64,000 bases of DNA from an uncultured Tateyamaria sp. (GTDB taxonomy: Bacteria; Pseudomonadota; Alphaproteobacteria; Rhodobacterales; Rhodobacteraceae): positions 1-64,000 of the forward strand of contig NZ_CANLVZ010000003.1 in assembly GCF_947494755.1 (NCBI RefSeq). Direction: 5' to 3'. The notes below the pieces were generated by a model. That model saw only the letters and a list, made by a program, of their open reading frames with translations. It was not told where the DNA came from and ran no database searches. Of this stretch, positions 34,072 through 49,546 are shown one piece after another. The translations under genes were made by a program, and so were the position numbers. Position 1 is the stretch's first letter. Every line of letters begins with the position of its first letter.

Positions 34072-34089
34072 GCGGACAACATGTCCGCC
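34071..34089. repeat. GGCGGA-type palindromic unit, copy 1
   Basis: GGCGGACA (34071-34078), ACA loop, TGTCCGCC (34082-34089), followed by TTAC. It starts at the last base of the asparaginase stop. It belongs to a family of four units described at 49487, 49528 and 51183. Confidence 0.6.
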
Positions 34090-34124
34090 TTACACATTTC
34101 TTTTGTCCGAAAATACGGCGGGGT

Positions 34125-34141
34125 CTGGGGCAGCGCCCCAG
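34125..34141 (-). terminator. Hairpin CTGGGGC-AGC-GCCCCAG (repeat copy 2)
   Basis: Identical stem and loop to 31626-31642, with conserved flanks (AAAATAC before, GTC after). On the minus strand it directly follows the serB stop and is followed by TATTTTCGG, so it probably ends serB transcription. Confidence 0.6.
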
Positions 34142-35020: not shown

Positions 35021-35114
35021 GGGCAAGTTTCCGAAAGGCGACGGGCATGTCGCAAATAAATCAACAAGCGGCGCTATAGCCCTCAAACGCGGCTTGCACC
35101 ACCCCGCGCGGCAG

Positions 35115-35153
35115 CGTACGTCCGGCGGCGGGACACCCTTCCCCAACGAAGGG
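35115..35153 (+). repeat. attL: left copy of 39-bp direct repeat
   Basis: This 39-bp segment is repeated at 48279-48317 in the same orientation with two mismatches (positions 35119 and 35129). The last 24 bases (35130-35153, beginning GGGACACCCT) are identical. The right copy is part of the serC leader. Here the copy lies 95 bp from serB and 67 bp from the integrase stop, in opposite orientation to serB. I read it as the host-side attachment junction left by site-specific integration. Confidence 0.82.
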
Positions 35154-35212
35154 TCCAATTCATTGCTATATTTCCTTTTATTTACAGATACTTGATCGAA
35201 AGCTGCTTTCGT

Positions 35213-35233
35213 CTTGTGTCTATTTTGTGCCAA
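35213..35233 (+). repeat. Candidate integrase arm site, left
   Basis: The 21-bp sequence starts CTTGTGTC and ends TTTGTGCCAA; it is 19/21 identical, in the same orientation, to 48167-48187. It overlaps the end of the integrase gene, 59 bp inside the core repeat. Paired subterminal repeats of this kind are common arm-binding sites of tyrosine integrases. Confidence 0.5.
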
Positions 35234-36185
35234 AAAGCACATCTGTGACGGTCGGATCATCCATCGCGTGCGCATAGAATTTCATAACTGTTCCAACGTC
35301 TTTCCAACCACCACGTACCGCGACAGTCTTTGGGTCTATCCCGGCCTGCAGCATCGAAGTTGCAAATCCGTGGCGGCAACAGTGGGGCGAGAGCTTTTCG
35401 ATGCCCGCTCGCTCGATGACGTTGTTCCAGACCTGCCCCACGCTTTCGCCAGAGGCATACTGAAACACCAAACTGTCAGGTTTACGGTTTGAAGGAATGT
35501 TCGCCAATGCCGCGATGACTGGCGGCGACAGGTGCGCAATGCGTTGGTCATCGATTTTGGTTTGATTGATCACGGCCTTCTTCTGAAACAGCTCAACGTC
35601 ACCCCAAGTTAAAGCACATGCCTCACCACGTCGCGCTCCCGTGCCAAACATAAACAGGCACAGCGCAGCCAAGTGATGTAGCTCATCTTGTACCGCTTGC
35701 TGCGCGAAAGCTTCTACCCACCCCCGTGTTGCAGGGGTCTTTCTCTTGGCTTTGACCTTGAACCGTTTAACCCTGATCCGTGCGCACCATTCCAAATCCG
35801 CTGCGTAGTTGATGATCGCTTGCGCCGGTACTATGCCTTGACGGTTCAAAGTGGCATTGGCCGCGCCAGGATACAATTTGCGGGCCATTTGGCGGATAGC
35901 CTCGCCGTTGATCTTTGGGACAAGCGTGTCCTTCCAATAGTCCTCAACGCGATCAAGAAACCGGTCGTCACGCGCTGCCTGCCTATAAGCAATTGCGGCT
36001 TGGGCAAACGTCAGCGTTGCGCCCGGTCCATCAAGATGACTTTGCCACGCTTTTGTTTCGATTTCTGCTGCGATCCTCTCTGCGATCCTCTTGTCCGCTG
36101 TTCCCGTAGGGCCTCGTAGTCGCCTACCGGCAACTGTGCCTCTGTAGCTATAGAGCTTGTTCCGTTTGAAGACTTTGAGCGGCAT
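35220..36185 (-). CDS. Tyrosine recombinase / phage-type integrase
   Basis: A 321-aa integrase. An N-terminal arm-type segment (MPLKVFKRNKLYSYRGTVAG) is followed by a SAM-like core-binding domain and the catalytic domain. Visible catalytic residues are Arg in FGTGARRGEACAL, His-x-x-Arg in HCCRHGFATSML, and Trp/His near KDVGTVMKFYAHAM with the Tyr in that same segment. It lies at the end of the element with its 3' end 67 bp from attL, the usual orientation. Upstream, the HTH gene at 36011-36355 overlaps its first 175 bases in another frame. The start at 36185 is the first family-like Met. It would catalyse integration and, with an excisionase, excision. Confidence 0.9.
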   Translation of the reverse strand: MPLKVFKRNKLYSYRGTVAGRRLRGPTGTADKRIAERIAAEIETKAWQSHLDGPGATLTFAQAAIAYRQAARDDRFLDRVEDYWKDTLVPKINGEAIRQMARKLYPGAANATLNRQGIVPAQAIINYAADLEWCARIRVKRFKVKAKRKTPATRGWVEAFAQQAVQDELHHLAALCLFMFGTGARRGEACALTWGDVELFQKKAVINQTKIDDQRIAHLSPPVIAALANIPSNRKPDSLVFQYASGESVGQVWNNVIERAGIEKLSPHCCRHGFATSMLQAGIDPKTVAVRGGWKDVGTVMKFYAHAMDDPTVTDVLFGTK

Positions 36186-36355
36186 TCCATCGCCTCCATA
36201 AACGTGACCACATGATGATCCAACATAATGACTTTCTGACCAATTTTGCAAAAGCATCCGAGTTCGCGGACAGTGTCCGACACGAATCGTGGAGAAGCGG
36301 TAAGACGCTTCGCGAGGGCACGCGGCGTCGTATGTGATGGCAAAATATCACTCAT
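36011..36355 (-). CDS. Small HTH protein overlapping the integrase start
   Basis: A 114-aa protein whose first 60 residues (MSDILPSHTTPRALAKRLTA, then FVSDTVRELGCFCKIGQKVI) look like a winged HTH of the excisionase type; the C-terminal third is basic and low in complexity (QRGSQQKSKQKRGK). Its last 175 bases overlap the beginning of the integrase gene in a different frame. It starts within the last eight bases of the preceding HTH gene, so the three are translationally linked. The coupling supports it as real, but the extended overlap leaves doubt; it could be shorter. Confidence 0.55.
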   Translation of the reverse strand: MSDILPSHTTPRALAKRLTASPRFVSDTVRELGCFCKIGQKVIMLDHHVVTFMEAMECRSKSSNGTSSIATEAQLPVGDYEALREQRTRGSQRGSQQKSKQKRGKVILMDRAQR

Positions 36356-36554
36356 TTTCCGGCACCTCGACCTGGCATGGCTCGACCATGTTCCGTGCGA
36401 TGTATTCATGAATAGCGTTCTGAGGCAGAAGGAAATTTGCCCCATTTCTCAAGAACCTAATGCTTCTCGTCGAGATCAATTTCCTGATCCGCTTCTCTGG
36501 CCAACCTGTCTCAGCTGCCAATTGTCTAGGGGTAAGCAGGGTACATTCGTTCAT
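36348..36554 (-). CDS. Small HTH protein, excisionase-like
   Basis: A 68-aa protein with one helix-turn-helix: LLTPRQLAAETGWPEKRIRK, followed by ISTRSIRFLRNGANFLLPQN, the usual pattern of AlpA/Xis-like DNA-binding proteins. It would act as a recombination directionality factor or a regulator of the integrase. It is the first gene of the minus-strand unit that ends with the integrase and is divergent from the XRE gene across an intergenic region of 90 bp. Confidence 0.75.
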   Translation of the reverse strand: MNECTLLTPRQLAAETGWPEKRIRKLISTRSIRFLRNGANFLLPQNAIHEYIARNMVEPCQVEVPENE

Positions 36555-36628
36555 AGTTCTTTCCTCTTGATCAAATAGTAGTATGATTAGACAGAACGCG
36601 TCACATTAGGTTACGTTAGTCCAAATAT

Positions 36629-36641
36629 GGGAACATTTGTC
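36629..36641. promoter_or_regulatory. Imperfect palindrome in the element's control region
   Basis: GGAACATTTGTCC is a near-palindromic 13-mer just before the proposed XRE start. It lies in the divergent region between the excisionase-like gene and the XRE gene, the right place for a repressor operator. Support is modest. Confidence 0.3.
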
Positions 36642-36644
36642 CGC

Positions 36645-37052
36645 ATGTCAACTGTGTTGATTGGGATAGGCCAAAGGATGCTCAGCGTACGCAGCCAATT
36701 GGGCTATCCTCAAAGCAAGGTCGCCGCGATACTTGGGATCGCCGACAAGTCCTATAAAAATTATGAGCTTGAAAGACGGGAGTTACCGCTCTCGATCGCA
36801 GTCAAGTTTTGCGAAGAATTCGACAAGAACCTTATTTGGCTGGTCTATGGGATTTCCGTTCCTGACAGTGAGCAGTCGGCGCGTCTGGCCGGGGAAACCG
36901 CTCAGGCCGTTTTTGATCATGCCGATGCGAATGACAGATCGTTTTCCAGCGCGGAAATTCAGAAATACACCCACTACATCTTTGAGCAATCCCTCTCAAA
37001 AGGCACGTCGCCGCAAAGCGAAGCAAAGCTGTTCTTTTCGGCTATTGGATAA
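36645..37052 (+). CDS. XRE-family regulator of the element
   Basis: A protein of about 135 aa with an N-terminal HTH_3 domain (GIGQRMLSVRSQLGYPQSKV, ILGIADKSYKNYELERRELP, then FDKNLIWLVYG), which resembles phage CI-type repressors. The C-terminal part (residues about 75-135) is a helical extension with no known domain. It is divergent from the HTH-integrase unit, so it probably represses excision and its own transcription. ATGs at 36627 and 36645 are both possible; neither has a strong ribosome site. I prefer 36645 because the family begins there. Confidence 0.75.
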   Translation: MSTVLIGIGQRMLSVRSQLGYPQSKVAAILGIADKSYKNYELERRELPLSIAVKFCEEFDKNLIWLVYGISVPDSEQSARLAGETAQAVFDHADANDRSFSSAEIQKYTHYIFEQSLSKGTSPQSEAKLFFSAIG

Positions 37053-37065
37053 GGCGAGCAACCCG

Positions 37066-37335
37066 ATGAAGCATCTGAAAGACCCGAACACGCCGATCAA
37101 TAAATTCGCCAACTCTCTGCGCCTGATGGGTATCCTGCTTCTGGTAGCCAGTAGCATTGGCTTTATCTCTTATCGTTCAGACACGGGCAATTTCTGGGAT
37201 ATCTATACACTGTTCCTACTGCACCTAGCTGTCGCAGGGGGCATCCTCGCATTTGTTGGTGAAACGCTTTGGAAAATCCTCATCACAAACAGCGATGTTT
37301 CCCGCCGCAAGTTCTATTTTTATGACGAGAAATAG
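37066..37335 (+). CDS. Small membrane protein of unknown function
   Basis: An 89-aa protein with two predicted transmembrane helices (LMGILLLVASSIGFISYR and LFLLHLAVAGGILAFVGETL) joined by a short loop (SDTGNFWDIYT), and a basic C-terminal tail (SRRKFYFYDEK). It begins 13 bases after the XRE stop with AAGG/GAG purines upstream, so it is probably in the same transcript. No domain recognised. It could be a regulator-linked membrane protein or a cargo gene. Confidence 0.55.
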   Translation: MKHLKDPNTPINKFANSLRLMGILLLVASSIGFISYRSDTGNFWDIYTLFLLHLAVAGGILAFVGETLWKILITNSDVSRRKFYFYDEK

Positions 37336-37410
37336 TTGGCGGACCTGCCCAAAATCGACCGATCTGGCTTAGCGCAGCCCCCTTCATGCGAGGAACAACA
37401 TTGATCGAGG

Positions 37411-38619
37411 TTACAGATTAACGAAAAACTGGATAATCACTGCATTGGCTAGGTCGACGAAGAACGCTGAGACAAGCGGCAAGACGATAAATGCAAGCGG
37501 TGCGGGACCGTAACGTTTTGTCACGGATGACATGTTTGCAATCGCGGTTGGCGTGGCCCCAAGTGTGAACCCTGCGAAACCTGCGCTGAGCACCGCACCT
37601 TGATAGTTGCTGCCCATCAGACGAAAGAAGATGAGTAGGATAAACGCGACCGTCATCACAACTTGCAGCACCAGAACGGCCAAAATCGGCCCGCCCAATT
37701 CTGCGAGGGTCCAAAGCTGAAGACTCATCAAGGACATCGCCAGAAACACCGACAGACAGTAGTCTGAAATGACCGCAAGAGACTTGGTACGTGCAGGCCA
37801 TGTGATTGAAGGCATGAGGTAAGGAATGGTGTTGGACATGACGATGCCAACCAGCAGGCAGGGAACGAACAAGGGCAGCTTCACGCCAGCCTCAATAATC
37901 CCCAGATGCACGATGTAGCCCAGCAAGATCGCCACATGCACGGCGAGCATGCCGCGCATCAGGCTGACATGGTTGATAAGGTCGTCAGGGTTCTCCTTGT
38001 CGTCAAACTCAAGGCCAACAATCGGCTCATCAGCCTGATCGCTTTGTAGGCTGTTACGGTCGATCAGGCGCTTTGCAATCGGCCCTCCCAGCACTGCGGC
38101 AAGGATCAGACCCAACGTTGCAGCGGCCACACCCGTTTCGGGTGCTGCGCCAAACCTGGTCAGCTCTTCAATTTGCGGGCCCCATGCAATCGCTGTGCCA
38201 TGCCCCCCTATCAGCGAAGCAGAGCCCACCAGAACGGATGTGGCGGCGGGCAAGCCAAACAGGGTAACACCCAACAGACCCACAACATTTTGCAGAACCA
38301 TGAAGGCAAGTGTCAGCCCGAGAAGGAGCAAAAGGAGACGGCCCCCTTTGAACAGGTCCGCAATTTGTGCATTCAGCCCAATGGTCGCAAAAAACACCAC
38401 AAGCAGATAGTCGCGAACCTCTAAGTCAAACGTAATTTGTTGCCCCGTGATGGCAAAGAAGCCCCATGTAAGCAGTGCGACGGCAAGGCCACCTGAGACC
38501 GGCTCGGGGATGTTGTAGTCTCCCAAGACAGCGATCTTGCGAGTCAGAAAGGCTCCGAGGAAAAACACCACAAAGCCCAATGTGACAGAGATAAAGGCCG
38601 GGACAATGATTTCTGGCAC
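37411..38619 (-). CDS. gltS: Sodium/glutamate symporter
   Basis: A 402-aa inner-membrane Na+:glutamate symporter. Around ten to twelve hydrophobic segments are seen, with the family motifs YNIPEPVSGGLAVALLTW, FFATIGLNAQIADLFKGG and LIGGHGTAIAWGPQ near the substrate sites. It is cargo of the mobile element, alone on the minus strand, with the RND genes upstream. A role in uptake of glutamate under low-nutrient conditions is plausible but not shown. Confidence 0.9.
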   Translation of the reverse strand: MPEIIVPAFISVTLGFVVFFLGAFLTRKIAVLGDYNIPEPVSGGLAVALLTWGFFAITGQQITFDLEVRDYLLVVFFATIGLNAQIADLFKGGRLLLLLLGLTLAFMVLQNVVGLLGVTLFGLPAATSVLVGSASLIGGHGTAIAWGPQIEELTRFGAAPETGVAAATLGLILAAVLGGPIAKRLIDRNSLQSDQADEPIVGLEFDDKENPDDLINHVSLMRGMLAVHVAILLGYIVHLGIIEAGVKLPLFVPCLLVGIVMSNTIPYLMPSITWPARTKSLAVISDYCLSVFLAMSLMSLQLWTLAELGGPILAVLVLQVVMTVAFILLIFFRLMGSNYQGAVLSAGFAGFTLGATPTAIANMSSVTKRYGPAPLAFIVLPLVSAFFVDLANAVIIQFFVNL

Positions 38620-38695
38620 AGTGATTTCCTTTTAGCACGCGAGCGTGGAAGACGCTGAAGGTTCGCCCCGACAACCTAATGCGCAGATCCGTTTG

Positions 38696-41600
38696 TTAAC
38701 CTTCGGCAGTTTCCTCTTGGCGCACACGGAAGAAAATCGCGTAGAGCGCGGGGACGACAATCAAGGTCAGAATTGTCGCAAAGCTAAGTCCGCAGATAAT
38801 GACCACCGCAAGCGACTTAAAGAACGGGTCCCACAACAACGGCACCACGCCCAAAACGGTGGTCAATACGCCCAAGGACACCGGCCTGACACGGCTGACA
38901 GCCGCATCTATGACGGCAGCCATACGTGCCTTGCCATCCGCAATTTGCGTGTCCGTCTCGTCAATCAGAACAATCGCGTTCTTGATCAACATGCCCGTCA
39001 GCGACAGGATGCCGAGGATTGCCATAAACTCCAGCGGCGTTTGCGTGCCGGCAAGACCGTAGATCACACCAATCAACGCCAATGGCACGGCCAGCCAGAT
39101 GATGATTGTTTGCCGCCATGCATTAAACAGGAACAAGACCACGATGAACATTGCCCCAAACCCGATGGGCATAGTCGATGCGAGGCCTGCGTTGGCCTCT
39201 TGAGAGCTGCCAAACTCACCCTTCCATTCCATGCTGTAACCGGGGGGCAGAGCAATGCCTTCGATGGGGCCCTTCACGGCTTCAAACAGATCACCCGATA
39301 GAACACCCGGCGCATTGTCCGATTGCGCAGTGATCGCCAAAGCCCGGTCGATACGGCGCAGATTGCCTGCCTCAAACACAATGTCAAAGCGGTCGACAAC
39401 TTGGCTGATCGGTATATATCGGCCAATCGCCGCGCTGTAGACTTGGATATCACGCAACTGGCCGATGTCGTTGCGCGCGTCTTCAACGGGGCGCATGACC
39501 ACATTACGCAATTCATCACGTTCGCGGTAAACGCCAAGGGTTGTGCCCGTCAGATGGCTGTAAATTGCATTGGAAATCTCGCCCTGAGTCAGGCCCAAAC
39601 GGCGCGCGTTTTCGATGTCGATGACGGGACGTACGACCTGTACCTGTTCGCGCCAGTCGTCTTTGACAGCCACGGCACCGGCTTGCGACATGATCGTTTT
39701 CGCCTGTGCGGCTAGATCGCGCAGAACAGCTGGTTCTGGACCAAAGAACCGCGCCTCCAACTTGGAGCCCCCACCCGGACCCAAAACGAACTTCCAAACT
39801 TTCGTGTTGGATTCAGGGTATGCCTCATCAATGTAAGCCTGCAAATCCGTGCGCAGCCCGTCGATGATGGTATAGTCTTCGACATCCACCAAAATCTGAC
39901 CATAGGCCGGATTTCCGCCCTCTGCTTCATAGATCAGCATAAAGCGCAGATGACCGCCACCCACGACTGTGTTAGTCCCTGTCACGCCCTCTAACCCACG
40001 CGCGTATTCTGCGATTTCAGTCAGATCAGCTTGAGTGTTCGCAATGTCGGCCCCTTGCGGTAGGAAATAGTCGATCACGAACTGATCGCGTGTGGACGAC
40101 GGAAAGAACCCCGCCGGGACGGCACCGAACATTGCAATGGCCGATACAAAAAGCGCCACAGTGATGCCGACGGTGATCCAGCGCACCTTGATCGCAAGCG
40201 CCAGAAACGCGCGGTAGACATTGAGGAACGCGTTCTCTTTGGGCTCGGCGTCCGCTTGGCCCTGCTTGAGCAACACGGTGCAATAATAAGGCGTGAGCCA
40301 GATCGCCACGAGCCATGAGAACAGCAAGGCAATGCCGATGGTCCAGAACAGGCTTCCTGCATACTCGCCCGTGTTGTCAGGCGAAAACCCGATGGGAGAG
40401 AACGCTAGGGTGCCAACAACCGTGCCGCCCAAGAGCGGCCACATGGTTTGCTTGACGATAGCGCGCGATGCTTTTGCGGCGTCTTCCCCGCGCTGCACGC
40501 GCACCAGCGTGCCTTCGACGACCACAATAGCGTTGTCCACCAGCATGCCCAAGGCGATGATCAGCGCACCCAGCGAAATACGCTGCATGTTGAGACCATA
40601 AAGGTACATCCCAAAGAGCGTGCCCGCTATGGTCACAAGCAAAATGCCACCCATCAGGATGCCAGAGCGCAACCCCATAAAGATCAGCAACGTGCCAACC
40701 ACGATGGCCAATGCTAGTGCGACGTTGACGACGAAATCATCCACAGATGATTTTACCGCAGCGCCTTGATCCGAGATCGGCAATACCTTGATGCCAATCG
40801 GGCGTTCATCAAATAATTCAGCAATCCGGTCTTTGACCGCATTGCTCATGTTCACGACATTACCGCCACGTGTGTTGGAAATGCCCAGACCGATGGCTGG
40901 TTCACCATTGCGAAACAACAGAGTACTTGCAGGCTCTTTCAGTCCGCGCGACACTGTCGCAATGTCTCCCAGACGGAAAGATGTGCCGCTCTGTGCGTTT
41001 GTAATCAGAAGGTTCTGGATTGCATCAATCGATCCCACCGCACTTTCTGGCCGTACTGAAAGACGCGACAGACCCGCTTTGATCGACCCGGCTGGTGTGA
41101 CAAGGTTTTGCCCCTCCAACAGTTGCTGGATCTGTCCCGGTGACAGGCCAAGTTCGGTCAGCCGCGCAGGGGCATATTCGACATAGATGACCTCTTCCTG
41201 CACACCATTCAAAACTACCTTCGAGACGCCATCCACCGTGACCAGTTCGCGCTGTAAATCTTTGGCGTATTCATAGAGATCAGTGATCGTGAACCCTTCA
41301 CCCGTGATCGCGTAATACTGGGCATAGACATCGCCAAAGTCGTCATAGACCTGAGACCCAAGCGCATTCGGCGGTAGTTGCGATTGCGCATCCGATATCT
41401 TGGCGCGCATCTTTGAAAAGACCTGATCCAGCTCGGTGTAGCCAGGCGTTGCTGCAATCGTAAATTCGACCGTGACGGTGCTGAGGCCGGGAGAAGACAC
41501 AGAACGGACTTCATCAATTCCCTGCAATTGCTGCAACGCGTTTTCCACAACTTCGGTCACTTCCTCGGCGACTTCCTCGGCTGAGGCACCGGGATAGGGC

Positions 41601-41746
41601 GTTACAATCTGCGCCTGCCGGATGACAAACTCGGGGTCTTCAAAACGCGGCAGCACCGTATAGGCAAAATACCCAGCAAAAAGGATCAAAATAGTCGCAA
41701 CGGCGGAGATCAGGCGCTTTTCCAGCGCGAACCGGGCCAAATCCAT
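38696..41746 (-). CDS. RND efflux transporter, inner-membrane pump (HAE family)
   Basis: A 1016-aa RND pump with the normal twelve-helix layout and two large periplasmic loops. The helix 4 motif GMLVDNAIVVVEGTLVRVQR carries the Asp that relays protons; the second-half helix motif LTGMLIKNAIVLIDE is also present. The sequence fits multidrug or hydrophobe efflux pumps of the AcrB/MexF type rather than metal pumps. The adaptor is encoded four bases upstream. No outer-membrane channel is in the window, so it probably works with a chromosomal TolC homologue. Substrate unknown. Confidence 0.92.
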   Translation of the reverse strand: MDLARFALEKRLISAVATILILFAGYFAYTVLPRFEDPEFVIRQAQIVTPYPGASAEEVAEEVTEVVENALQQLQGIDEVRSVSSPGLSTVTVEFTIAATPGYTELDQVFSKMRAKISDAQSQLPPNALGSQVYDDFGDVYAQYYAITGEGFTITDLYEYAKDLQRELVTVDGVSKVVLNGVQEEVIYVEYAPARLTELGLSPGQIQQLLEGQNLVTPAGSIKAGLSRLSVRPESAVGSIDAIQNLLITNAQSGTSFRLGDIATVSRGLKEPASTLLFRNGEPAIGLGISNTRGGNVVNMSNAVKDRIAELFDERPIGIKVLPISDQGAAVKSSVDDFVVNVALALAIVVGTLLIFMGLRSGILMGGILLVTIAGTLFGMYLYGLNMQRISLGALIIALGMLVDNAIVVVEGTLVRVQRGEDAAKASRAIVKQTMWPLLGGTVVGTLAFSPIGFSPDNTGEYAGSLFWTIGIALLFSWLVAIWLTPYYCTVLLKQGQADAEPKENAFLNVYRAFLALAIKVRWITVGITVALFVSAIAMFGAVPAGFFPSSTRDQFVIDYFLPQGADIANTQADLTEIAEYARGLEGVTGTNTVVGGGHLRFMLIYEAEGGNPAYGQILVDVEDYTIIDGLRTDLQAYIDEAYPESNTKVWKFVLGPGGGSKLEARFFGPEPAVLRDLAAQAKTIMSQAGAVAVKDDWREQVQVVRPVIDIENARRLGLTQGEISNAIYSHLTGTTLGVYRERDELRNVVMRPVEDARNDIGQLRDIQVYSAAIGRYIPISQVVDRFDIVFEAGNLRRIDRALAITAQSDNAPGVLSGDLFEAVKGPIEGIALPPGYSMEWKGEFGSSQEANAGLASTMPIGFGAMFIVVLFLFNAWRQTIIIWLAVPLALIGVIYGLAGTQTPLEFMAILGILSLTGMLIKNAIVLIDETDTQIADGKARMAAVIDAAVSRVRPVSLGVLTTVLGVVPLLWDPFFKSLAVVIICGLSFATILTLIVVPALYAIFFRVRQEETAEG

Positions 41747-41750
41747 CTGA

Positions 41751-42998
41751 TCAGTTCCCCACGCGTGTGATCGGGCGGATGGTCATTCCGTCGATGATCT
41801 CGCTGACACCTGCGGACACGATCGTCTCGCCACCAACAAGGCCTTCGCTGATCACCACGCTGTCGCCTGCAGCCTCTCCCAATGAAACCTGTTGCGCGGA
41901 TACTCTTCCATCTGCGGCCACCAGCCAGACAAATGGAGATCCATCGGGTCCGGCCGCAATGGCAGACAGGGGCGCGCTGACTTGTGCGGCTGACCCTTGG
42001 GTTGATGAAATCACACTCGCCACCATGCCGGGCAGGATCACGGCGCCCTCAGGCACAGTCACAGATACGCGGCCCCGATAGGTTTGCGTTGCACTGTCAG
42101 CCTGAACAGAAAATTCGACCAGTTCGGTTTCAAATTCCTGTCCACGTAGAGAATTGAAGGTGGCAGTGTTGGTGATGCTGTCAGGCCCATTTCGGGTCAG
42201 CTCGGTCACATCAAGGCTGGGAATGTCAAAGGCCAGATGCACAACTTCTAACCGCTGAAGCAAGGCGATGCTTTGTCCCGCAGACACGTTTGCGAAATTT
42301 TCAATATCCCGGCGCGCAATGATGCCATCAAAAGGGGCGGTCAGCGTGGCGTCTGACAGGTTATCCCGGGCCACTTTGATTTGGGCGTCAATGCCGCGCA
42401 AAGCGGCCTCGGCACCTGCAATCTCTTCAGGTCGTCCGCCAATCTCCCCAATCCGCAACTGCTCTTGTTGCGCGCGCAAATTCGCCTGTGCAACCCGCGC
42501 TTCTGCCTGCGCGCCTTCAACCTGCGCCCGCGTCGCCACGCCGCGTTCCAGCAGTGTTTCAGCCCTGCTCAATGCGTCCGCAGTCTGCTCGACTTGCGCC
42601 TGAGCAGAGGCAACCGCTGCTTCTAGCGCGGATATCTCTTCTGGCCTAGCACCTGCTTGCAAGGCCTCTAGTTGCGCAGTTGCCTGATCACGACTGCTTT
42701 GAAGCTGGGATATCTGGTTCTCAAAATCCCGTGTATCAATCTGGGCGATTGTATCGCCCGCACTCACATTTGATGCCGCCCGAATAGGCAGATCAATGAT
42801 TTGCCCAGAGACCTTGAAGGACAGTTCAATCTCTTGAGATGGCAAGACGACAGCTGGGTATTTGCGCGAGATGACGGTATCCGAAGCTGTCACAGTCGCC
42901 ACTTTGGCCGGGCGCGGCGTTGCCTCTTGCGCAACAGCGTCAGTGCTCACCAATACACCGATCAAACCCAAGATTCCGAAAATGCTGTTTTGCGCCAT
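41751..42998 (-). CDS. RND efflux periplasmic adaptor (membrane fusion protein)
   Basis: A 415-aa periplasmic adaptor with an N-terminal signal sequence (ILGLIGVLVSTDAVA). It shows the lipoyl-type halves (VSGQIIDLPIRAASNVSAGD and ATLTAPFDGIIARRD), a long coiled-coil hairpin between about residues 95 and 215 (ALEAAVASAQAQVEQTADAL), and a C-terminal beta-barrel. It bridges the pump with an outer-membrane channel. It is the first gene of the two-gene operon and is divergent from the channel gene. Confidence 0.9.
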   Translation of the reverse strand: MAQNSIFGILGLIGVLVSTDAVAQEATPRPAKVATVTASDTVISRKYPAVVLPSQEIELSFKVSGQIIDLPIRAASNVSAGDTIAQIDTRDFENQISQLQSSRDQATAQLEALQAGARPEEISALEAAVASAQAQVEQTADALSRAETLLERGVATRAQVEGAQAEARVAQANLRAQQEQLRIGEIGGRPEEIAGAEAALRGIDAQIKVARDNLSDATLTAPFDGIIARRDIENFANVSAGQSIALLQRLEVVHLAFDIPSLDVTELTRNGPDSITNTATFNSLRGQEFETELVEFSVQADSATQTYRGRVSVTVPEGAVILPGMVASVISSTQGSAAQVSAPLSAIAAGPDGSPFVWLVAADGRVSAQQVSLGEAAGDSVVISEGLVGGETIVSAGVSEIIDGMTIRPITRVGN

Positions 42999-43073
42999 AA
43001 TAATTGCCCCTGGATGTCGTCTGTGTCTCTATCTCTATAGATCAAGTCTTAGAAACAAACCAAGGAACGTGCT

Positions 43074-43523
43074 ATGGGTGCCGTCCAACAAATACTTCTC
43101 GGAACCGGACTGTTGACGTTCAGCGCCCTGGTTCATGTTGGTGCTATCGCACTTAGCATTCCGCATTTTTCAAAGGTTGCAGGGCTTTTTGGGGTTAGAA
43201 GGTGGTCGCGACTGCGGGTCGTGGCATTGCTCTCATTCAGCATTTTCGTGCTTATTCTAGCGCATACATTGCAGGTTTGGACATGGTCATTGCTCTTTTC
43301 GCGGATCACCGATTTACCTGACCTTGTGACAAGCTTTTACTTCGCCACGGTGACATACACGACACTTGGATACGGTGACATCGTGTTGGGTCCAGACGCG
43401 CGCATCGTTGCCACGTTCTGCGCGATCACGGGTTTGCTGACCTTCGGGATCAGTACAGCCTTTCTGATTGGCGTTTTGTCTCGGGTGTTGCCGGATGTTT
43501 TTGAAGGCAGTGAAGAGAATTGA
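43074..43523 (+). CDS. Small potassium-channel-like membrane protein
   Basis: A 149-aa protein with three or four transmembrane helices; the last two flank a pore loop containing the selectivity filter TLGYGD (in TVTYTTLGYGDIVLG). The Ion_trans_2 pattern suggests a potassium channel subunit. It is compact, has no cytoplasmic regulatory domain, and would assemble as a tetramer. It is divergent from the efflux adaptor gene in the mobile element; the 238 bp downstream of it (43524-43761) hold no gene I can recognise and probably carry the promoter of the ATPase gene. Confidence 0.85.
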   Translation: MGAVQQILLGTGLLTFSALVHVGAIALSIPHFSKVAGLFGVRRWSRLRVVALLSFSIFVLILAHTLQVWTWSLLFSRITDLPDLVTSFYFATVTYTTLGYGDIVLGPDARIVATFCAITGLLTFGISTAFLIGVLSRVLPDVFEGSEEN

Positions 43524-43761
43524 TCTTTGTGAGAACTTCACCCTGATCCATCGGGCATTGAGGTCTTCGTTTAGCCCGGCATTTCGATGCACTTCGGATG
43601 CAAGCCTAGGGTCTGGTCACCTTGCGCTTGGATGTTCAGTTAGCTAAAGATCACTGCAAATCTGATCGGTCCGGCTGATAAAATGACGCAAATAGATGTT
43701 ACATATCAGCACCCTGAGGCATGGCGTTGTGATAGGATCACGACCGTGATACTAACCCGAC

Positions 43762-45204
43762 ATGCTTGAAATATCACAATCAGACATCCTGAAGAGCCTC
43801 AAAAGAGACAATCCTTGGTGGGATGCAGAATACGCTATTCCAGACGGATCAATCGAAAAGTACCGATCCTACTTTAGGCCTTTTTGTGAGTTATCGCTCG
43901 ACTGGTCCGTAAATCGTTCGACAATTCTTATGGGGCCACGCCGTGTCGGAAAAACCGTCATGCTCCGTCAAATGATCGAAGAGGCGCTACGTGATGGATT
44001 TGACAGAACGCGAATCTTGTTCGTGTCCATCGACACACCCCTCTATAGTGGCATGCCCCTTGACCGGTTGATCTCACTTTTTGAAGAAGTGACGGGTCAG
44101 GGTTCGGATGAACGTCGCATTATAATCTTCGATGAGGTTCAGTACCTCAAGGAGTGGGAAGTCCACTTGAAGGTTCTGACAGATCGACACCCCAAAACGC
44201 GCTTCATCGCATCGGGGTCCGCAGCTGCAGCGCTCAAATTGAAAAGCCAAGAGTCAGGTGCAGGGCGGTTCACCGACTTCTTCCTTCCACCACTTACATT
44301 TGCGGAGTTTTTGGCCTTTCGAGACGTCGAAGACGAATTGATCGAAGCCCGTCAGATGCAAGGCACAATGCGCTATACAACAACCGACATCGAACAATTA
44401 AATATCGAGTTCATCAACTACTTAAACTTTGGTGGTTATCCTGAAGCGGTGCTGAACAAGACGATTCAGGCTGACGTTCAACGTTTTTTGGGGCGCGACA
44501 TCATCGATAAGGTTCTGTTGCGCGATCTGCCAAGCCTCTATGGGATACAGGACATCCAAGAACTCAACCGGCTGTTTACCACGCTGGCCTATCACACAGG
44601 GGAGGAGATCAGCTTGGATGGGCTGGCCCAAAGCTCTGGCGTAGCAAAGAACACGATCACCAAATATCTCGACTATCTGGAAGCAGCATTCTTGATCGTT
44701 CGTGTCAAACGCGTGGACGAAACTGGTAAAACATTCGCTCGGATGCGGAATTTTAAGGTCTATTTGACAAATCCTTCCATGAGAACGGCCCTATTTGCGC
44801 CTGTCGAAGACGGGGATGAGCCAATGGGCGCTTTGGCCGAAACAGCCATCTTTTCGCAGTGGTTCCATTCGAACCAAATGATGAACAACATCCACTACGC
44901 CCGCTGGAAACAGGGTAGAACCTATCTTGAGGTCGACTTGGTGCGTGTGGATGCCGCGCGCCTAAAGCCATCATGGGCATATGAGATCAAATGGTCTGAT
45001 CGCTATGCAGGAGATCAGCCTGGTGAGCTGCGAGGCCTGATCGAACTTGCGAAGAAGCATGCCGATATGCCTTTGCCTGTTGGGGCTACAACCAAAACAC
45101 TAACCTGCGAGACCGAAGTCGATGGCATAACTGTGAGACATTTTCCGTGTGCTTTGCACTGCTATCAAGTTGGCAAAAACGTTGCTGAAGGACGCGCTCC
45201 GTAG
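43762..45204 (+). CDS. AAA ATPase with DUF4143 domain
   Basis: A 480-aa protein of the AAA_14/DUF4143 family. Walker A is GPRRVGKTVMLRQ at about residue 55-65; Walker B is RRIIIFDEVQYLKEW. The ATPase part (about 40-220) is followed by a winged-helix region (LDGLAQSSGVAKNTITKYLD) and the DUF4143 nuclease-like C-terminus (EVDLVRVDAARLKPSWAYEI). Members occur widely and their cellular role is unclear. It is carried by the mobile element and is convergent with mobA, with 12 bp between the stops. Confidence 0.87.
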   Translation: MLEISQSDILKSLKRDNPWWDAEYAIPDGSIEKYRSYFRPFCELSLDWSVNRSTILMGPRRVGKTVMLRQMIEEALRDGFDRTRILFVSIDTPLYSGMPLDRLISLFEEVTGQGSDERRIIIFDEVQYLKEWEVHLKVLTDRHPKTRFIASGSAAAALKLKSQESGAGRFTDFFLPPLTFAEFLAFRDVEDELIEARQMQGTMRYTTTDIEQLNIEFINYLNFGGYPEAVLNKTIQADVQRFLGRDIIDKVLLRDLPSLYGIQDIQELNRLFTTLAYHTGEEISLDGLAQSSGVAKNTITKYLDYLEAAFLIVRVKRVDETGKTFARMRNFKVYLTNPSMRTALFAPVEDGDEPMGALAETAIFSQWFHSNQMMNNIHYARWKQGRTYLEVDLVRVDAARLKPSWAYEIKWSDRYAGDQPGELRGLIELAKKHADMPLPVGATTKTLTCETEVDGITVRHFPCALHCYQVGKNVAEGRAP

Positions 45205-45216
45205 ATTGGAAGCTGT

Positions 45217-46740
45217 TCAATGCGTCATCCCCCGATCCATCTCCACCTCCCGCTCTTCTAGCTCTGTCTTAACCTCTCTTCGGCGGCTTTCGCTAACTTC
45301 AAGCTGGTCTCGAGTTGCCTGCGCAAATTCCCGTAGTTCGAGCCCTCGCTCAACAAGCCGTGCAACGCAGCCACGGACGCCACTTGCGATTGAATGAGCA
45401 CCTACACGCAGGCGGCCAATCCATCCATCTGGCTCTGCATCTTGGTCGTCGAGCGTGCCTCTAACCCGCTCAATTCCTTTGCTGAGACCTCGCAGGCCGT
45501 CACCAACCGCTCTACGCAAGCGAGCAAGTCGCGTTCCAACGCTGTCAGGGGTTTCGTCATCTAGTCCTCCTCGATCTTGATGCATGTCACTGACCTGCCA
45601 CCCAGCGTGCAGGTCCTCAGCCGCGTCTTGGTCGGGTCCAGCACCAGCCACGTCCCGTCCTCCCTGTCGATCCGCGTCAGGCCCAGTTCCGTCAGTTCCG
45701 AGCGCGTCAGTTGGACCGTCCAAAGCAAGCTCGCCGCCATCATCAAGGCGATCCCCGCCAAGAACGTCCCCGTGATCAACCAGGGTGAGATCGTCAGCCA
45801 GCTCTTGTTCTGTCGCAGAAAAGTGCGGGTATCGATCTCGATTGTATGCTGCGCGTTGGTCGCAATGGCGTTCAAATCGGTCCTGAAGCTCTCCAGTTGG
45901 GATGCCATCGAGGCGGCGTAGTCCTGCCGGATCGTGTCCAGCTCCGCATTCAGCTTCTCGCTCAGCCGGGTCGGCTTGCCAGTTTTCATGGAAAATCTCT
46001 CCTTTCAAACGCCAGCGTTCGCCGGTGTTGGGGTCTTGGGCGGTCAGGTAGGCTTTGCCCGTGCGCGGGATGTCGAAGCCCGCATCGACGAGGGCGTCGA
46101 GCATGCTGGCGCGGTCAGTAATCAGACCGACGCTGATCTGATCTTGCAGCCACGCGTGCAGCTCGTCCCGGCCTTGGGCGCGGGTTGGGGTTTCGATGGT
46201 GTCGCGGACCTCTTGGATACGCTCCAGCTCCATCGGGTCGGCCCAGCCGTGGCGCTGGTTCATCACGTCGCGCAGGGTGTCGAAGGCGTTCTGATAGCCG
46301 GGCGGCGCGATGTTCAGGCTTCGGCCCGAGGTCAGCTCCAAGCGCGGTGTGCAGAAATGGAGCTCAACGCGGTCTTCGTGGGTATGTCGGACCCAGAGCA
46401 CGTCATATTGCGTCGGGTCCAGCCCCGCGAAGGCCAGACGCTCAAACCCGTCCATGACCTCGGCCTGCTGTTCCTCGGACGGAGCGTCGGTTGCGGCAAA
46501 GCTGATCACGCCCGCGCGGTAGGTCCACTGGTGGCGGCTGGCGTCGATCAAGGCTTCGGTGCGGTCGGGATTGCCGCGCAGGACCTCGGGCAAGGGTTCG
46601 CGCGTGACGGTCATCGGTTGGCCGCCTGCATCGCGGATCAGGTCGCGGTTGTCGTCATAGGCCAGCACCTTGTCCGCGACGAGGTAGCCGACCGGACCAG
46701 CGCCCGCACCTTTGCCGTTGCGGAAGAACTTGATCAGCAT
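45217..46740 (-). CDS. mobA: MobA-type relaxase (ColE1-like)
   Basis: A 507-aa relaxase. The N-terminus (MLIKFFRNGKGAGAGPVGYL) and the metal-binding segment VRHTHEDRVELHFCTPRLEL (His, Glu, His) resemble ColE1-family MobA (MOBP5, HEN type). The relaxase core is residues about 1-220. From about residue 245 the sequence becomes D-, G- and L-rich and repetitive, because an MobB-like gene is encoded there in another frame; a coiled-coil-like C-terminus follows (LELREFAQATRDQLEVSESR). The start overlaps the mobC stop by seven bases. The protein would nick oriT and pilot the strand. The whole mob order matches ColE1. Confidence 0.87.
   Translation of the reverse strand: MLIKFFRNGKGAGAGPVGYLVADKVLAYDDNRDLIRDAGGQPMTVTREPLPEVLRGNPDRTEALIDASRHQWTYRAGVISFAATDAPSEEQQAEVMDGFERLAFAGLDPTQYDVLWVRHTHEDRVELHFCTPRLELTSGRSLNIAPPGYQNAFDTLRDVMNQRHGWADPMELERIQEVRDTIETPTRAQGRDELHAWLQDQISVGLITDRASMLDALVDAGFDIPRTGKAYLTAQDPNTGERWRLKGEIFHENWQADPAEREAECGAGHDPAGLRRLDGIPTGELQDRFERHCDQRAAYNRDRYPHFSATEQELADDLTLVDHGDVLGGDRLDDGGELALDGPTDALGTDGTGPDADRQGGRDVAGAGPDQDAAEDLHAGWQVSDMHQDRGGLDDETPDSVGTRLARLRRAVGDGLRGLSKGIERVRGTLDDQDAEPDGWIGRLRVGAHSIASGVRGCVARLVERGLELREFAQATRDQLEVSESRRREVKTELEEREVEMDRGMTH
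45561..45989 (-). CDS. MobB-like membrane protein nested in mobA
   Basis: A 142-aa frame lying entirely inside mobA in a different reading frame. It has an N-terminal helical, coiled-coil-like region (LSEKLNAELDTIRQDYAASM, ASQLESFRTDLNAIATNAQH), a strong transmembrane helix (LITGTFLAGIALMMAASLLW) and a C-terminal tail (REDGTWLVLDPTKTRLRTCT). In ColE1-type plasmids mobB is likewise nested inside mobA, and membrane-anchored forms are known, so the match in position and type supports a real gene. Over the same stretch the relaxase frame is low in complexity, as expected if it is constrained by the other frame. Start at 45989; the ribosome site lies in mobA sequence. Confidence 0.72.
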   Translation of the reverse strand: MKTGKPTRLSEKLNAELDTIRQDYAASMASQLESFRTDLNAIATNAQHTIEIDTRTFLRQNKSWLTISPWLITGTFLAGIALMMAASLLWTVQLTRSELTELGLTRIDREDGTWLVLDPTKTRLRTCTLGGRSVTCIKIEED

Positions 46741-47207
46741 CGGCGCGCAGCCTCAACGATCTGGGCAAGCTGGCGTTCGATGGTCAGCAGGCGGCGCGCG
46801 ACGGTCAGGCTGTCGAGGTCGGTGCGGCCAACCAACATCGCGCGGTTCAGCCAGCGGGCGATCTGGTTGAGGTTGCCGCCAATGCGCCCGACGGCCAGCA
46901 CCAGCGTAGGGTCAACGCGGGGAATGGGCTTGCGACGGCGGGCCTCGGTAAGGCCAAGCGCCTCGCGCAGCAGGGTCGCAGCAGGAAGGCCAGCGGCTTC
47001 GGCCTTGGCGCGCAACTGGGCCTTCTCCGCCGATGTGCACCGAAAGACGAAGGTCTCGGTCAGCGGCTCTTTGGTGCGGGCTTTTACCGCACCGGTGGGG
47101 TTCGAAGGGGAGGCTTGCCGCCCCTCGCAAGGTCCCGTGTCAGCAGCGCCAGCGTATGACATGGGTCGCCTTGCTGTTTGCTCTTCGGTGGGATCGGTTG
47201 CGGTCAT
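46734..47207 (-). CDS. mobC: Mobilization accessory protein MobC
   Basis: A 157-aa protein with the MobC/relaxosome accessory pattern: VFRCTSAEKAQLRAKAEAAG, then VAVGRIGGNLNQIARWLNRA (the conserved GxNLNQIAR). Such proteins bind DNA near oriT and help the relaxase open the strands. The start is the ATG that overlaps the upstream HTH gene stop (ATGA); its stop overlaps the mobA start by seven bases. Confidence 0.88.
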   Translation of the reverse strand: MTATDPTEEQTARRPMSYAGAADTGPCEGRQASPSNPTGAVKARTKEPLTETFVFRCTSAEKAQLRAKAEAAGLPAATLLREALGLTEARRRKPIPRVDPTLVLAVGRIGGNLNQIARWLNRAMLVGRTDLDSLTVARRLLTIERQLAQIVEAARRC

Positions 47208-48076
47208 GATCTGAGGCCAGCGGCTTGGATTTGGGCCTGGGTCACCAGCTTTGAAGCGAGCAACGCAGTAACCTGCGGTGCCGTGATGTGTTTGCACATC
47301 GGGCTGCGGCCGCTAATCCAGCAGGCCAGCCGCGCATGGTGATCGGCCTCCAACACCTTCGCCTTTTCTAGGTCTTCCGCTTGCTTATCGACATAGGCCT
47401 GCCAGCGCCGTGACTGAAACCAGTTGTCGGAAAAGCAGACCTTGGAGCGGGTGAACCCTGCGCTGTCGGTGGCGTAGGCTTGGGCGGCTTGCAGCAAGTC
47501 CTCCGGCTTGATCCCTTCCTTCACGGCCTCTTCGATTTGGGCAAGGCAGGCCGCTCTGCCGCGAAGTCGGTCTGGTGGATAGGCTTCCAGAATCTTCTCA
47601 GCCTCCCCCGCCTCGCGCCTGCGCGAAGGAGGTTCCTTTTTAGGTTCAATGGTAAGGTTCCTGTCCCGATTTGAGACTACCCCCGTCTCACTACTGGGAC
47701 TTTTCCCCCGCGTTTTTGAGACGTTTCTCCCCGTCTCATTTTGAGACTCAACCCCGTTGGGACCGCTGCCACCCACCTTCGGGCGCGCACTCGGACCGAG
47801 GGTGATGTCGAGGTGTAACTCATACTGATTGGACCCGCGCCCGCCTTCGCCATCGCCACGGGCATGGCGTGTAACGAGACCGCATTCTTCCAAGGTCGTC
47901 ATATGCCGAAACAGCGTTGCCCGGCCCATCTCGCATTCGTCAGCCAACCGCTGCGCGCTAGGGTTACATTGGCCGGTTTCTTTATTGTGAAAATCCGCCA
48001 GCTGAATCAACACAATCTTAGCGGCGGGTTTCAACCCTTTGACGTTCGCGGCCCAGATCAACGCCATGCCACTCAT
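47204..48076 (-). CDS. HTH protein, replication-initiator-like, of the mob module
   Basis: A 290-aa protein. The N-terminal winged HTH (MALIWAANVKGLKPAAKIVL, NPSAQRLADECEMGRATLFR, HMTTLEECGLVTRHARG) belongs to the HTH_36-type domain found in plasmid and mobile-element proteins. The middle is rich in charged and polar residues, and the C-terminal third (QAQIQAAGLRS end) has helical segments with DNWFQSRRWQAY. It heads the operon HTH-mobC-mobA and reads away from attR. It may control the mob genes or act in replication or recombination; no exact family is recognised. Confidence 0.75.
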   Translation of the reverse strand: MSGMALIWAANVKGLKPAAKIVLIQLADFHNKETGQCNPSAQRLADECEMGRATLFRHMTTLEECGLVTRHARGDGEGGRGSNQYELHLDITLGPSARPKVGGSGPNGVESQNETGRNVSKTRGKSPSSETGVVSNRDRNLTIEPKKEPPSRRREAGEAEKILEAYPPDRLRGRAACLAQIEEAVKEGIKPEDLLQAAQAYATDSAGFTRSKVCFSDNWFQSRRWQAYVDKQAEDLEKAKVLEADHHARLACWISGRSPMCKHITAPQVTALLASKLVTQAQIQAAGLRS

Positions 48077-48166
48077 GACGCCACCTGACCCGCCAGAAAA
48101 GGGCTGATTGCATTAAGCATACCACACGATTCTGCGGCTTGGTGTTGTGGAACAAAACCGGATTTC

Positions 48167-48187
48167 CTTGTGTCAAATTTGTGCCAA
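48167..48187 (+). repeat. Candidate integrase arm site, right
   Basis: 19/21 identical, same orientation, to 35213-35233. It lies in the 202-bp stretch between the mob HTH gene and attR (48077-48278), which shows no gene. That stretch is also the only sizeable gap next to the mob genes, so oriT is likely to be there. An inverted pair CCACA/TGTGG at 48121-48150 is a weak hint. Confidence 0.45.
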
Positions 48188-48278
48188 TAGGAAACATGCG
48201 TTCCTGCATCGTTCTGCAAAAGGCTACATTTACCTTCAAGGCAAACACCTTTGCCTATTGCTGTTTTTACTGGGGTTC

Positions 48279-48317
48279 CGTATGTCCGGCGGTGGGACAC
48301 CCTTCCCCAACGAAGGG
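48279..48317 (+). repeat. attR: right copy of the 39-bp direct repeat
   Basis: Same orientation as 35115-35153 with 37 of 39 bases identical and the last 24 identical. It ends 24 bp before the serC start codon. It contains both leader hairpins described for 48284-48317. The host side of attR is serC and the element side is the mob end. Confidence 0.82.
48284..48317 (+). ncRNA. serC leader RNA (two hairpins)
   Basis: First hairpin: GTCC (48284-48287) pairs with GGAC (48295-48298). Second: CCCTTC (48300-48305) pairs with GAAGGG (48312-48317) over a CCCAAC loop. A serC leader RNA motif has been described for Rhodobacterales upstream of serC; this matches in position and in being a compact hairpin leader, but I cannot compare it with the published model here. 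The structure coincides with the integration core, so insertion leaves it intact. Confidence 0.6.
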
Positions 48318-48341
48318 CGATTATCTGTAAGGATACCAGAA

Positions 48342-49481
48342 ATGGCTACGCAACAACCGGGCACCCGCCCGAACAATCCGCGCTTTTCCTCCGGGCCATG
48401 CGCCAAACCCCCCACACATATCCTGACCGCCTTGGCCGACGCCCCTTTGGGCCGCTCGCACCGCGCCGCCGTCGGCAAAGCCAAGCTGAAAAAGGCCATC
48501 GACGAAACGCGCGAGATCCTCGGTGTACCAGAGGATTACCGCATCGGGATCGTGCCCGCCTCCGACACAGGCGCCTACGAGATGGCGATGTGGTCTCTGC
48601 TCGGGGAACGCCCTGCGGAGATGGTGGCGTGGGAGAGTTTCGGCGCGGGCTGGGTCACGGATGTCGCCAAACAACTCAAGATCGACCACACCGTCCACAC
48701 CGCCGCCTACGGCGAGATCGTGGATATGGGTGCGCTGAACTACGACCACGATGTCTGCTTTACCTGGAACGGCACCACATCCGGCGTGCGGATGCCGAAC
48801 GGCGATGCGATCCCGACGGACCGCGCCGGGTTGACGCTGTGCGACGCGACCTCGGCAGCCTTTGCGATGGACCTGCCGTGGGACAAGTTGGATGTGACCA
48901 CATTCAGTTGGCAAAAGGTGCTGGGGGGCGAGGCCGCGCATGGGATGCTGATTCTGTCGCCGCGCGCCGTTGAACGTCTCGAATCCTACACCCCGCCATG
49001 GCCCATGCCCAAGATTTTCCGTCTGACCAAAGGCGGCAAGCTGATCGAAGGCATCTTTAAGGGAGAGACGATCAACACCCCCTCAATGCTGGCGGTCGAA
49101 GACTACCTCTTCGCGCTCGATTGGGCGAAATCCGTCGGCGGCCTGCAAGGGCTGATCGCACGAGCGGATGCGAACGCGCAGGCCATCGCGGATTTCGTCG
49201 CGCAACATGGCTGGATTGAAAACCTCGCCAGCGACCCGGCCACGCAGTCCACAACCTCGGTCTGCCTCAAGTTCACCGACGACCGGATCACGGATGGCGC
49301 AGCCTTTGCCAAGGCCGTTGCCCAACGGCTCGCGGATGAAAATGTCGCCCTCGACATCGGTGCTTATCGCGATGCGCCCCCTGGATTGCGCATTTGGTGC
49401 GGCGGGACAGTCGAGACGTCGGACATCGAAACGATGCTGCCGTGGCTCGCCTGGGCATTCGAGGCCGAAATCAACGCATAA
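48342..49481 (+). CDS. serC: Phosphoserine aminotransferase
   Basis: A 379-aa PLP enzyme converting 3-phosphohydroxypyruvate to phosphoserine, second step of serine synthesis, also used in pyridoxal phosphate formation. The PLP lysine lies in [38 protein letters not shown] is the typical alphaproteobacterial start, and a TAAGGA ribosome site precedes the ATG at 48342. The open frame upstream of this start runs into leader and element DNA and is not coding. It is in an operon with serA and now lies next to the right end of the element. Confidence 0.95.
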
Positions 49482-49486
49482 CCCCG

Positions 49487-49505
49487 GGCGGAGGACACCT
49501 CCGCC
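49487..49505. repeat. GGCGGA-type palindromic unit, copy 2
   Basis: GGCGGAGG, ACA loop, CCTCCGCC, followed by TTAC. It lies just after the serC stop. Copies 2 and 3 sit together in the 89-bp serC-serA gap. Confidence 0.6.
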
Positions 49506-49527
49506 TTACCCCATCCCCTGTTCGTAA

Positions 49528-49546
49528 GGCGGACGTTTCGTCCGCC
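49528..49546. repeat. GGCGGA-type palindromic unit, copy 3
   Basis: GGCGGACG, TTT loop, CGTCCGCC, preceded by GTAA. Same stem length and spacing as the other copies; 24 bp before the serA start. Such units may stabilise the serC message or limit its read-through. Confidence 0.6.

Follow-up and report, generated by a model that had tools for sequence, protein, structure and literature searches.

A putative integrative mobilizable element in the serC leader of an uncultured Tateyamaria sp. that appears to bring its own promoter-like sequence and half a leader hairpin

Introduction

Integrative elements with a single tyrosine integrase mostly use tRNA genes or the 3' ends of genes and more rarely 5' ends, according to the available part of PMC5704250, in whose main text the words 'riboswitch' and 'leader' have 0 occurrences. 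The present work concerns positions 35115 to 48317 of a 64,000-nt stretch of DNA (the window) from an uncultured Tateyamaria sp. of the Rhodobacteraceae (contig NZ_CANLVZ010000003.1, positions 1 to 64,000). This region is very probably an integrative mobilizable element whose tyrosine integrase recombines the attachment site attP of the element with hairpin 1 of the leader RNA of the chromosomal gene serC. It shares the combination of int and relaxase genes with the elements described in the available part of PMC5704250.

As far as the consulted sections of PMC4482086 go, the nearest precedent is the group of islands at the 5' end of dusA. The dusA integrases likewise share a single conserved target, situated at the 5' end of a housekeeping gene, to which the island gives a new 5' end, with putative −10 and −35 sequences before and after integration, and the site is common to prophages and islands. 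The tRNA- and tmRNA-targeting integrases (Islander; available part of PMC4383910) also use a structured RNA as the target, the split gene being restored and a displaced fragment left behind. The target considered here, the serC RNA motif RF00517, was described as a putative regulator with two stems and putative promoters directly upstream, the final hairpin of which would hide the ribosome-binding site (Corbino 2005, PMC1273637); the available part of that paper mentions nothing of integration at the motif.

Direct repeats and target site

A repeat search recovered two 39-bp direct repeats, at 35115-35153 and 48279-48317, with 2 mismatches (95% identity) and a spacing of 13,164 bp. The final 24 nt of both copies are identical, and a rough arithmetic estimate gives about 5e-7 for the chance of a perfect 24-nt repeat inside 16 kb. 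When the whole 4.1-Mb assembly was searched with 201 bp around the right copy, matches were found at these two places only, by which a chance or dispersed sequence was ruled out. An earlier sequence-only reading of this DNA had proposed that these repeats flank an integrase at one end and a ColE1-type mob module at the other, and had named a repeat scattered over the genome as the case that would speak against it. The two repeat copies and the Pfam or NCBIfam matches at both ends bear the proposal out, and no such scattering was seen.

The right copy falls in a full-length match to the serC leader of Rfam (RF00517, 48290-48341, 72.3 bits, model positions 1-52 of 52, cut-off 35) and ends 24 nt before the serC ATG at 48342, as had been read. 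The left copy gives a shorter match (35126-35160, 38 bits, same cut-off) and starts 95 bp upstream of the start of serB (35020, minus strand; start set from relatives), again in the reverse sense that had been proposed. No tRNA gene was detected by ARAGORN within the 64-kb window, which ruled out a tRNA target. The repeats are explained with high confidence as the attachment sites attL and attR of a 13.2-kb element inserted in the serC leader, a reading based on sequence comparison. The flanks and junctions are as follows.

34142-35020, minus strand: serB, left chromosomal flank (protein 92% identical to the empty-site SerB of the closest relative)
35094-35122, plus strand: original serC promoter-like sequence, apparently stranded at attL (−35 TTGCAC at 35094-35099, 17 nt, −10 TACGTC at 35117-35122; empty-site register)
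35115-35153, plus strand: putative attL, 39-bp repeat with the displaced 5' serC leader (hairpin 1 at 35136-35153, no hairpin 2)
48258-48286, plus strand: element-borne, putative replacement serC promoter-like sequence (−35 TTGCTG at 48258-48263, 17 nt, −10 TATGTC at 48281-48286)
48279-48317, plus strand: putative attR, 39-bp repeat (rebuilt hairpin 1 at 48300-48317)
48290-48341, plus strand: rebuilt serC leader RNA (the full-length RF00517 match)
48342-49481, plus strand: serC, right chromosomal flank (protein 94% identical to the empty-site SerC of the closest relative)

Empty sites

In the closest relative (genome G009, locus L042), window positions 33001-35153 align at 88.4% and 48279-51000 at 88.0%, and both alignments overlap on exactly the same 39 bp. 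Both flanks are joined there over one single copy, the empty site that the sequence-only reading had asked for. Its further idea that serB and serC were once divergent neighbours agrees with the relatives, since one leader lies between the divergent and adjacent genes in 15 of 19 of the same genus, and in 7 of the 10 loci read from other genera. The same-genus exceptions are G007, with serB about 2.6 kb from the leader; G015, with no serB within the 35.6 kb read; G019, where a gap of 12.6 kb between serB and leader holds the same rep and mob genes and no int match; and G010, with a 740-bp remnant between two leader copies. This remnant consists of the last 74 int residues (96% identical) joined to the first 74 rep residues. 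Across the family, RF00517 is found above cut-off in 347 of 394 genomes.

Recurrence of the integrase with a leader copy

Close homologues of the integrase (E ≤ 1e-60) were found in 15 of the 394 same-family genomes searched, the window's own included. Of these 15, 12 have two leader matches at E ≤ 0.001, against 4 of the 379 other genomes (Fisher p 3e-17, phylogeny not corrected for). On closer reading, a hairpin-1 copy is located just past the int stop in all 15 carriers, so the expected recurrence of related integrases at the same place holds. In 11 of the 15, serB adjoins this copy; no serB match was found in the stretch read of G300 and G351. Since G137 and G194 carry the right end of another element in the serB-side position, elements seem to have accumulated in tandem: the attL of L114 (G194) and of L110 (G137) is preceded by this foreign right end, a probable tandem accretion at the serC leader.

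The two leader copies might instead be an ancestral duplication of the leader or a recombination scar, the genes between them having come otherwise (by an insertion sequence or homologous recombination) and the integrase being a bystander. The 4 genomes with two leader matches and no close full integrase (G010, G166, G286 and G313) can be quoted for it, especially G166 and G313, which have no int match at all; however, the same rep/mob right end is still present in G166, as would follow from the loss of int by an element, and the G010 remnant has int at one end. The duplication is tightly linked with this integrase, the hairpin copy is constantly 3' of int, and the arm repeats described below have near-fixed offsets. 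A bystander integrase was rejected on the tight link across the 394 genomes, and this explanation as a whole is very improbable.

Beyond these genomes, 11 of 12 integrase relatives in public genome contigs have a leader copy, although four of the 12 (L055, from the cultured Planktotalea frisia SH6-1, and L056, L058 and L059) are apparently the same contigs as in the genomes above. Among the 11, the copy of L063 is degenerate beside an int fragment and that of L061 (Mesorhizobium) reaches 27.6 bits; the Afipia relative L062 is without a copy. Of 13 relatives scanned on viral contigs, three have it (L147, L155 and L157, the integrases of the last two being nearly the same), and L148, in which int is followed by only 57 bp, is not judgeable. 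When plasmids were searched with the integrase, one close relative came up, at 55%.

The integrase tree, from which 9 of 48 duplicate or fragmentary rows were removed, requires the serC label to change 6 times, at least 4 of these changes being forced by well-supported branches; the label 'other' means only that no leader was seen beside int. This suggests that target specificity switched more than once, some of the 'other' labels being only unknowns. The outgroup integrases L048-L051 and L146 have no adjacent tRNA by ARAGORN; their tRNA-using label is a weak one, given by eye from a 3'-half-like sequence (L049-L051, L146) or by kinship only (L048). Past int in the viral-contig relatives L156 (10979-11079), L158 (10110-10220) and L159 (11024-11130), there is a different promoter-like sequence together with the hairpin AGGACATCTYGCCCTAACG, possibly another leader RNA used as a target. 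This hairpin motif had 0 matches in 289 genomes of the class.

In a Sulfitobacter metagenome-assembled genome (L053), 10.2 kb of the element is present at 98.4% nucleotide identity, and the aligned 672 bp of serB reach only 71.9%. This contrast implies a recent transfer of the element between genomes.

Junction anatomy

Promoter offsets were counted from the first G of GGGACACC. The empty set comprised 22 of the 30 loci L003-L032 (L042 replacing L021, the same site); the other 8 were a remnant (L006), the window's own locus (L009) and loci without serB nearby. The 21 attR and 18 attL sequences were hand-picked. The attR set was composed of 13 on the contig of int or an int fragment, 3 from int-less occupants (L116, L117 and L037) and the remaining 5 on other contigs of int-carrying genomes, taken as the matching junction.

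Empty sites show TTG at −36 (20/22) and TA at −13 (22/22), that is, a −35/−10-like pair with a 17-nt spacer. Both motifs are present in 21 of 21 attR sequences, and the added L089 and L091, also on other contigs, fit as well, giving 23 of 23 serC-side junctions. At attL, each motif is found in 16 of 18 sequences and both in 15; of the added attL sequences, L110, L111, L115, L122, L114 and L063 fit and L124 is one base off. Four serC-side sites of uncertain state, included in no count, also fit (L033, L035, L038 and L079). TTG at other offsets averages 0.6–2%, with a second TTG at −43 in 17 of 21 attR sequences. In the window, the −10 box of attR is part of the 39-bp repeat, and the −35 comes from the element.

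An alternative is that the right-end promoter-like sequence is kept only as a stretch bound by the integrase or by descent, serC being transcribed by read-through or from another promoter. The 21 attR upstream sequences are mostly homologous and form only 5 groups at 60% identity, with 17 in one, so they are not independent, and the second TTG at −43 is nearly as common. Part of the promoter conservation is due to common descent, and integrase binding could account for another part. Nevertheless, the TTG/TA register is the same as in empty sites, is found in all 5 groups and in the two added junctions, and putative promoters stand directly before all serC motifs in the available part of Corbino et al. 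2005 (PMC1273637). This alternative is considered rather unlikely, and a replacement promoter supplied by the element is preferred.

Hairpin 1 pairs are kept in 126 of 126 cells at attR and in 103 of 108 at attL; all 21 attR sequences contain hairpin 2, and none of the 18 attL sequences does. The two-hairpin structure rests on the Rfam model and these pair counts. It was not recovered in RNAfold minimum-energy folds of three single leaders, in which the empty and attL leaders formed hairpin 1 and the window attR did not. The arms of attL and attR differ at left-arm position 3 in G137 and at the last stem base in L109, L111, L118/L119, L120/L121 and L122/L123. Such differences would confine the crossover to the interior of hairpin 1, and later mutation could also give them. 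On the whole, the crossover probably lies in hairpin 1 or next to it.

Once the element is integrated, the native serC promoter-like sequence faces the 3' end of int from the antisense side (window 35094-35230), and an antisense control of int is conceivable.

Integrase and arm-type sites

35220-36185, minus strand: tyrosine integrase (Pfam PF00589, 5.8e-25; PHROG integrase), probable start at codon 25 of a 345-aa open reading frame (ORF), 35220-36257
35215-35232, plus strand: left putative arm-type repeat pair TGTGTC-N5-TGTGCCA, which overlaps the int stop and lies 85 bp from the start of the attL core
48169-48186, plus strand: right putative arm-type repeat pair TGTGTC-N5-TGTGCCA, which lies 125 bp from the start of the attR core

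The motifs GARRGE, HCCRH and MKFYAH, which we take to be the catalytic motifs of a tyrosine recombinase, are present in the integrase. Bearing on its start, the int ORF is interrupted by a stop at about codon 6-7 in both L110 and L114, and no stop follows codon 28.

Pairs resembling TGTGTC-N5-TGTGCCA occur only twice in the window, at 35215 and 48169. The window and 16 relatives were scanned for them, and the pair was found at one or both ends in 14 of these 17 loci. The left pair is at 85 bp in 10 of the 11 elements where it was found (84 in L110), and the right pair at 125 bp in 10 of 11 (134 in L060). This layout is that expected of a lambda-type (heterobivalent) attP with putative arm sites.

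Gene content

36011-36355, minus strand: small protein overlapping the int start, a candidate recombination directionality factor (the function is a guess)
36348-36554, minus strand: excisionase-like small protein (TIGR01764 excise, 27.3 bits, just under the cut-off of 28.8)
36627-37052, plus strand: phage-repressor-like helix-turn-helix regulator, divergent from the int operon (Pfam HTH_19; PHROG transcriptional regulators)
37411-38619, minus strand: cargo, sodium/glutamate symporter GltS (PF03616, 7.7e-102)
38696-41746, minus strand: cargo, RND efflux permease (NCBIfam RND_permease_2, 1.8e-137, 459.9 bits, under the curated cut-off of 1250)
41751-42998, minus strand: cargo, probable RND periplasmic adaptor or membrane fusion protein (by position and sequence; 98.9% nucleotide identity in L053)
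43074-43523, plus strand: cargo, small ion channel protein (PF07885, 1.3e-11)
43762-45204, plus strand: cargo, AAA_14/DUF4143 ATPase (PF13173, PF13635)
45217-46740, minus strand: mobA relaxase, ColE1 MbeA-like (NF047848, 4.5e-37, residues 1-263, 128 bits against a cut-off of 500)
45561-45989, minus strand: mobB-like 142-aa ORF nested in mobA in another frame (87-88% identical ORF in L117 and L037, 57% in L108, 38% in L057)
46734-47297, minus strand: mobC/NikA-like accessory mobilization protein (PF21983, 1.1e-12; PF05713)
47204-48076, minus strand: replication-initiation protein, O-like, HTH_36 (phrog_270, 4.1e-25; phrog_391, 8.4e-20)

The protein at 36011-36355 gave a tblastn match in all 24 loci holding the 5' part of int (some contigs twice), part of which shares DNA with int in another frame, and it has no Pfam, NCBIfam or PHROG match. 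The MbeA-family relaxase, an upstream MobC and a nested second mob gene form a ColE1-type module, read with the relaxase score of 128 bits against a cut-off of 500. In addition, the relaxase scored 24.0 bits with Pfam Relaxase, just under 24.6, and gave matches in 3665 plasmid records, 3484 of them typed mobilizable; the nested ORF had no NCBIfam match. A scan of 12 of the 13 main element proteins and of part of the small ORFs found no conjugation pore gene. With its own integrase, precise att repeats, the empty site in relatives and relaxase/mob genes, the region has the features of an integrative mobilizable element.

Other occupants of the serC site

Other occupants measure 7.7-17.1 kb, the remnant aside, and differ in cargo. 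In what was scanned, some have ColE1-like mob genes, five have phage terminase and head genes, and others show neither. A type III restriction system with a Mob_Pre-like protein was found in L112, a pyridine-nucleotide oxidoreductase in L108 and a ZnuA-like protein in L117. The five phage-like occupants (L060, L109, L110, L111 and L115; 9.6-11.3 kb) have matches to terminase and to portal, capsid, head or prohead-protease families, and no tail family was found among their scanned ORFs, which are not all of them; L111 has a head-tail adaptor match. They look like candidate capsid-encoding phage satellites, for which cf-PICI is the name in use.

Int-less occupants or remnants sit at the same site in G010, G019 and G166, and the L056 integrase has in-frame stops. 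These cases give some ground for regarding the window element, too, as a decayed and immobile remnant, which is quite unlikely in view of its open int, rep and mob reading frames and of the 98.4% identical part of the element in a genome whose serB is 72% identical.

L063 and L128, apparently the same contig, lie about 31 kb apart; the former is an int fragment with a degenerate leader beside serB, and in the latter an element-type right end accompanies an intact leader. Together they may represent a larger composite or a decayed occupant. G286 has two full serC leaders, C19:94-145 and C75:1-48, each at a contig end and with no close integrase, perhaps from two serC genes or an assembly break.

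Discussion

The site, the repeats, the empty sites, the recurrence, the junction anatomy, the arm repeats and the recent transfer are features of the sequences compared. Integration and strand exchange by this integrase, promoter activity, excision and mobilization are what we infer from them. The attachment site attB would be a short inverted repeat immediately past the serC promoter, with two arms and a centre of 6 bp each, a DNA dyad that exists because it encodes an RNA hairpin. Integration would strand the native promoter and the 5' half of the leader on the serB side (attL), and the right end of the element would supply, besides its own −35, duplicates of the −10 box, of the 5' leader and of the left arm of hairpin 1. 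A complete promoter-like region and leader would be rebuilt before serC at attR, with hairpin 2, the right arm of hairpin 1 and the ribosome-binding site remaining chromosomal. This split fits the leader layout in the available part of PMC1273637. Since the element brings a replacement promoter-like region and half a hairpin, serC probably stays usable. Excision probably depends on the small excisionase-like genes beside int, and transfer on the ColE1-like mob genes with a helper conjugation system.

Several observations weigh against this explanation, besides the shared descent of the attR upstream sequences. The attL copy is above the Rfam cut-off in only 6 of the 15 int carriers; the others are 6 below cut-off at E ≤ 0.001, one at E 0.003 (G419) and two recognized by sequence only (G264 and G300). 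No serC leader was found beside int in L062/L150, L145, L149 and L151-L154, relatives within the same integrase family, although the integrase of L154 hardly differs from that of L155/L157, both of which have the leader. Of the 17 loci scanned, L111, L115 and L061 gave no match to the arm pattern, and the serC-side site L039/L032, of uncertain state, has its TTG one base off. The attL hairpin centre is one base shorter (CCAAC) than that of attR in 5 divergent elements (L110, L111, L115, L122 and L124). Such a shorter centre is odd for a recombinase expected to need equal overlaps.

As a wider and tentative idea, to which we give rather less than even weight, integrases of this family may exploit a conserved cis-regulatory RNA hairpin as an inverted repeat already present in the DNA, as the tRNA-using ones do with the anticodon arm. 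Every lineage adopting the site would then have to carry a replacement promoter, elements would take over transcription of the serine-biosynthesis operon, and serC expression may couple to the state of the element, with conjugative hitchhikers, capsid-encoding satellites and phage-like elements all exploiting the leader. The main explanation itself would place a cis-regulatory RNA leader among the chromosomal docking sites, with a suggested rule of choice: a conserved RNA hairpin is a conserved DNA dyad beside a promoter in nearly all hosts. The set of empty, occupied, tandem and decayed sites lends itself to asking whether a mobile element can take control of a core-operon promoter harmlessly, and the serC-leader site could be a practical marker for small mobile elements in Rhodobacteraceae.

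The RF00517 identity, the apparent rebuilding of the promoter, the near-fixed arm-type repeats and the elements with phage head genes at the same site go beyond the sequence-only reading. No description of a serC-leader integration site was found among the titles and abstract openings listed in searches of the open-access literature, and 'serC' has 0 occurrences in the main text of PMC13386836, PMC8627217 and PMC11476347. What appears new is that the leader RNA of a gene would serve as attB, a cis-regulatory target for which the element would bring the promoter and half of the hairpin; no precedent was found among the same listed titles and abstract openings.

Compared with capsid-encoding phage satellites, L060, L109-L111 and L115 share terminase/head-type genes, and the window element differs, none of its scanned proteins being of head or terminase kind. 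Integrations in tRNA genes mostly involve the 3' side. Unlike these, the serC element would displace and restore the promoter-proximal 5' side of its target. It also falls outside the dusA-specific family, defined by integration in dusA, its target being the serC leader. In the dusA islands, as far as the consulted sections of PMC4482086 describe them, the site is in coding sequence, whereas here it is a non-coding cis-regulatory RNA hairpin, and a promoter and leader, not a protein, would be rebuilt.

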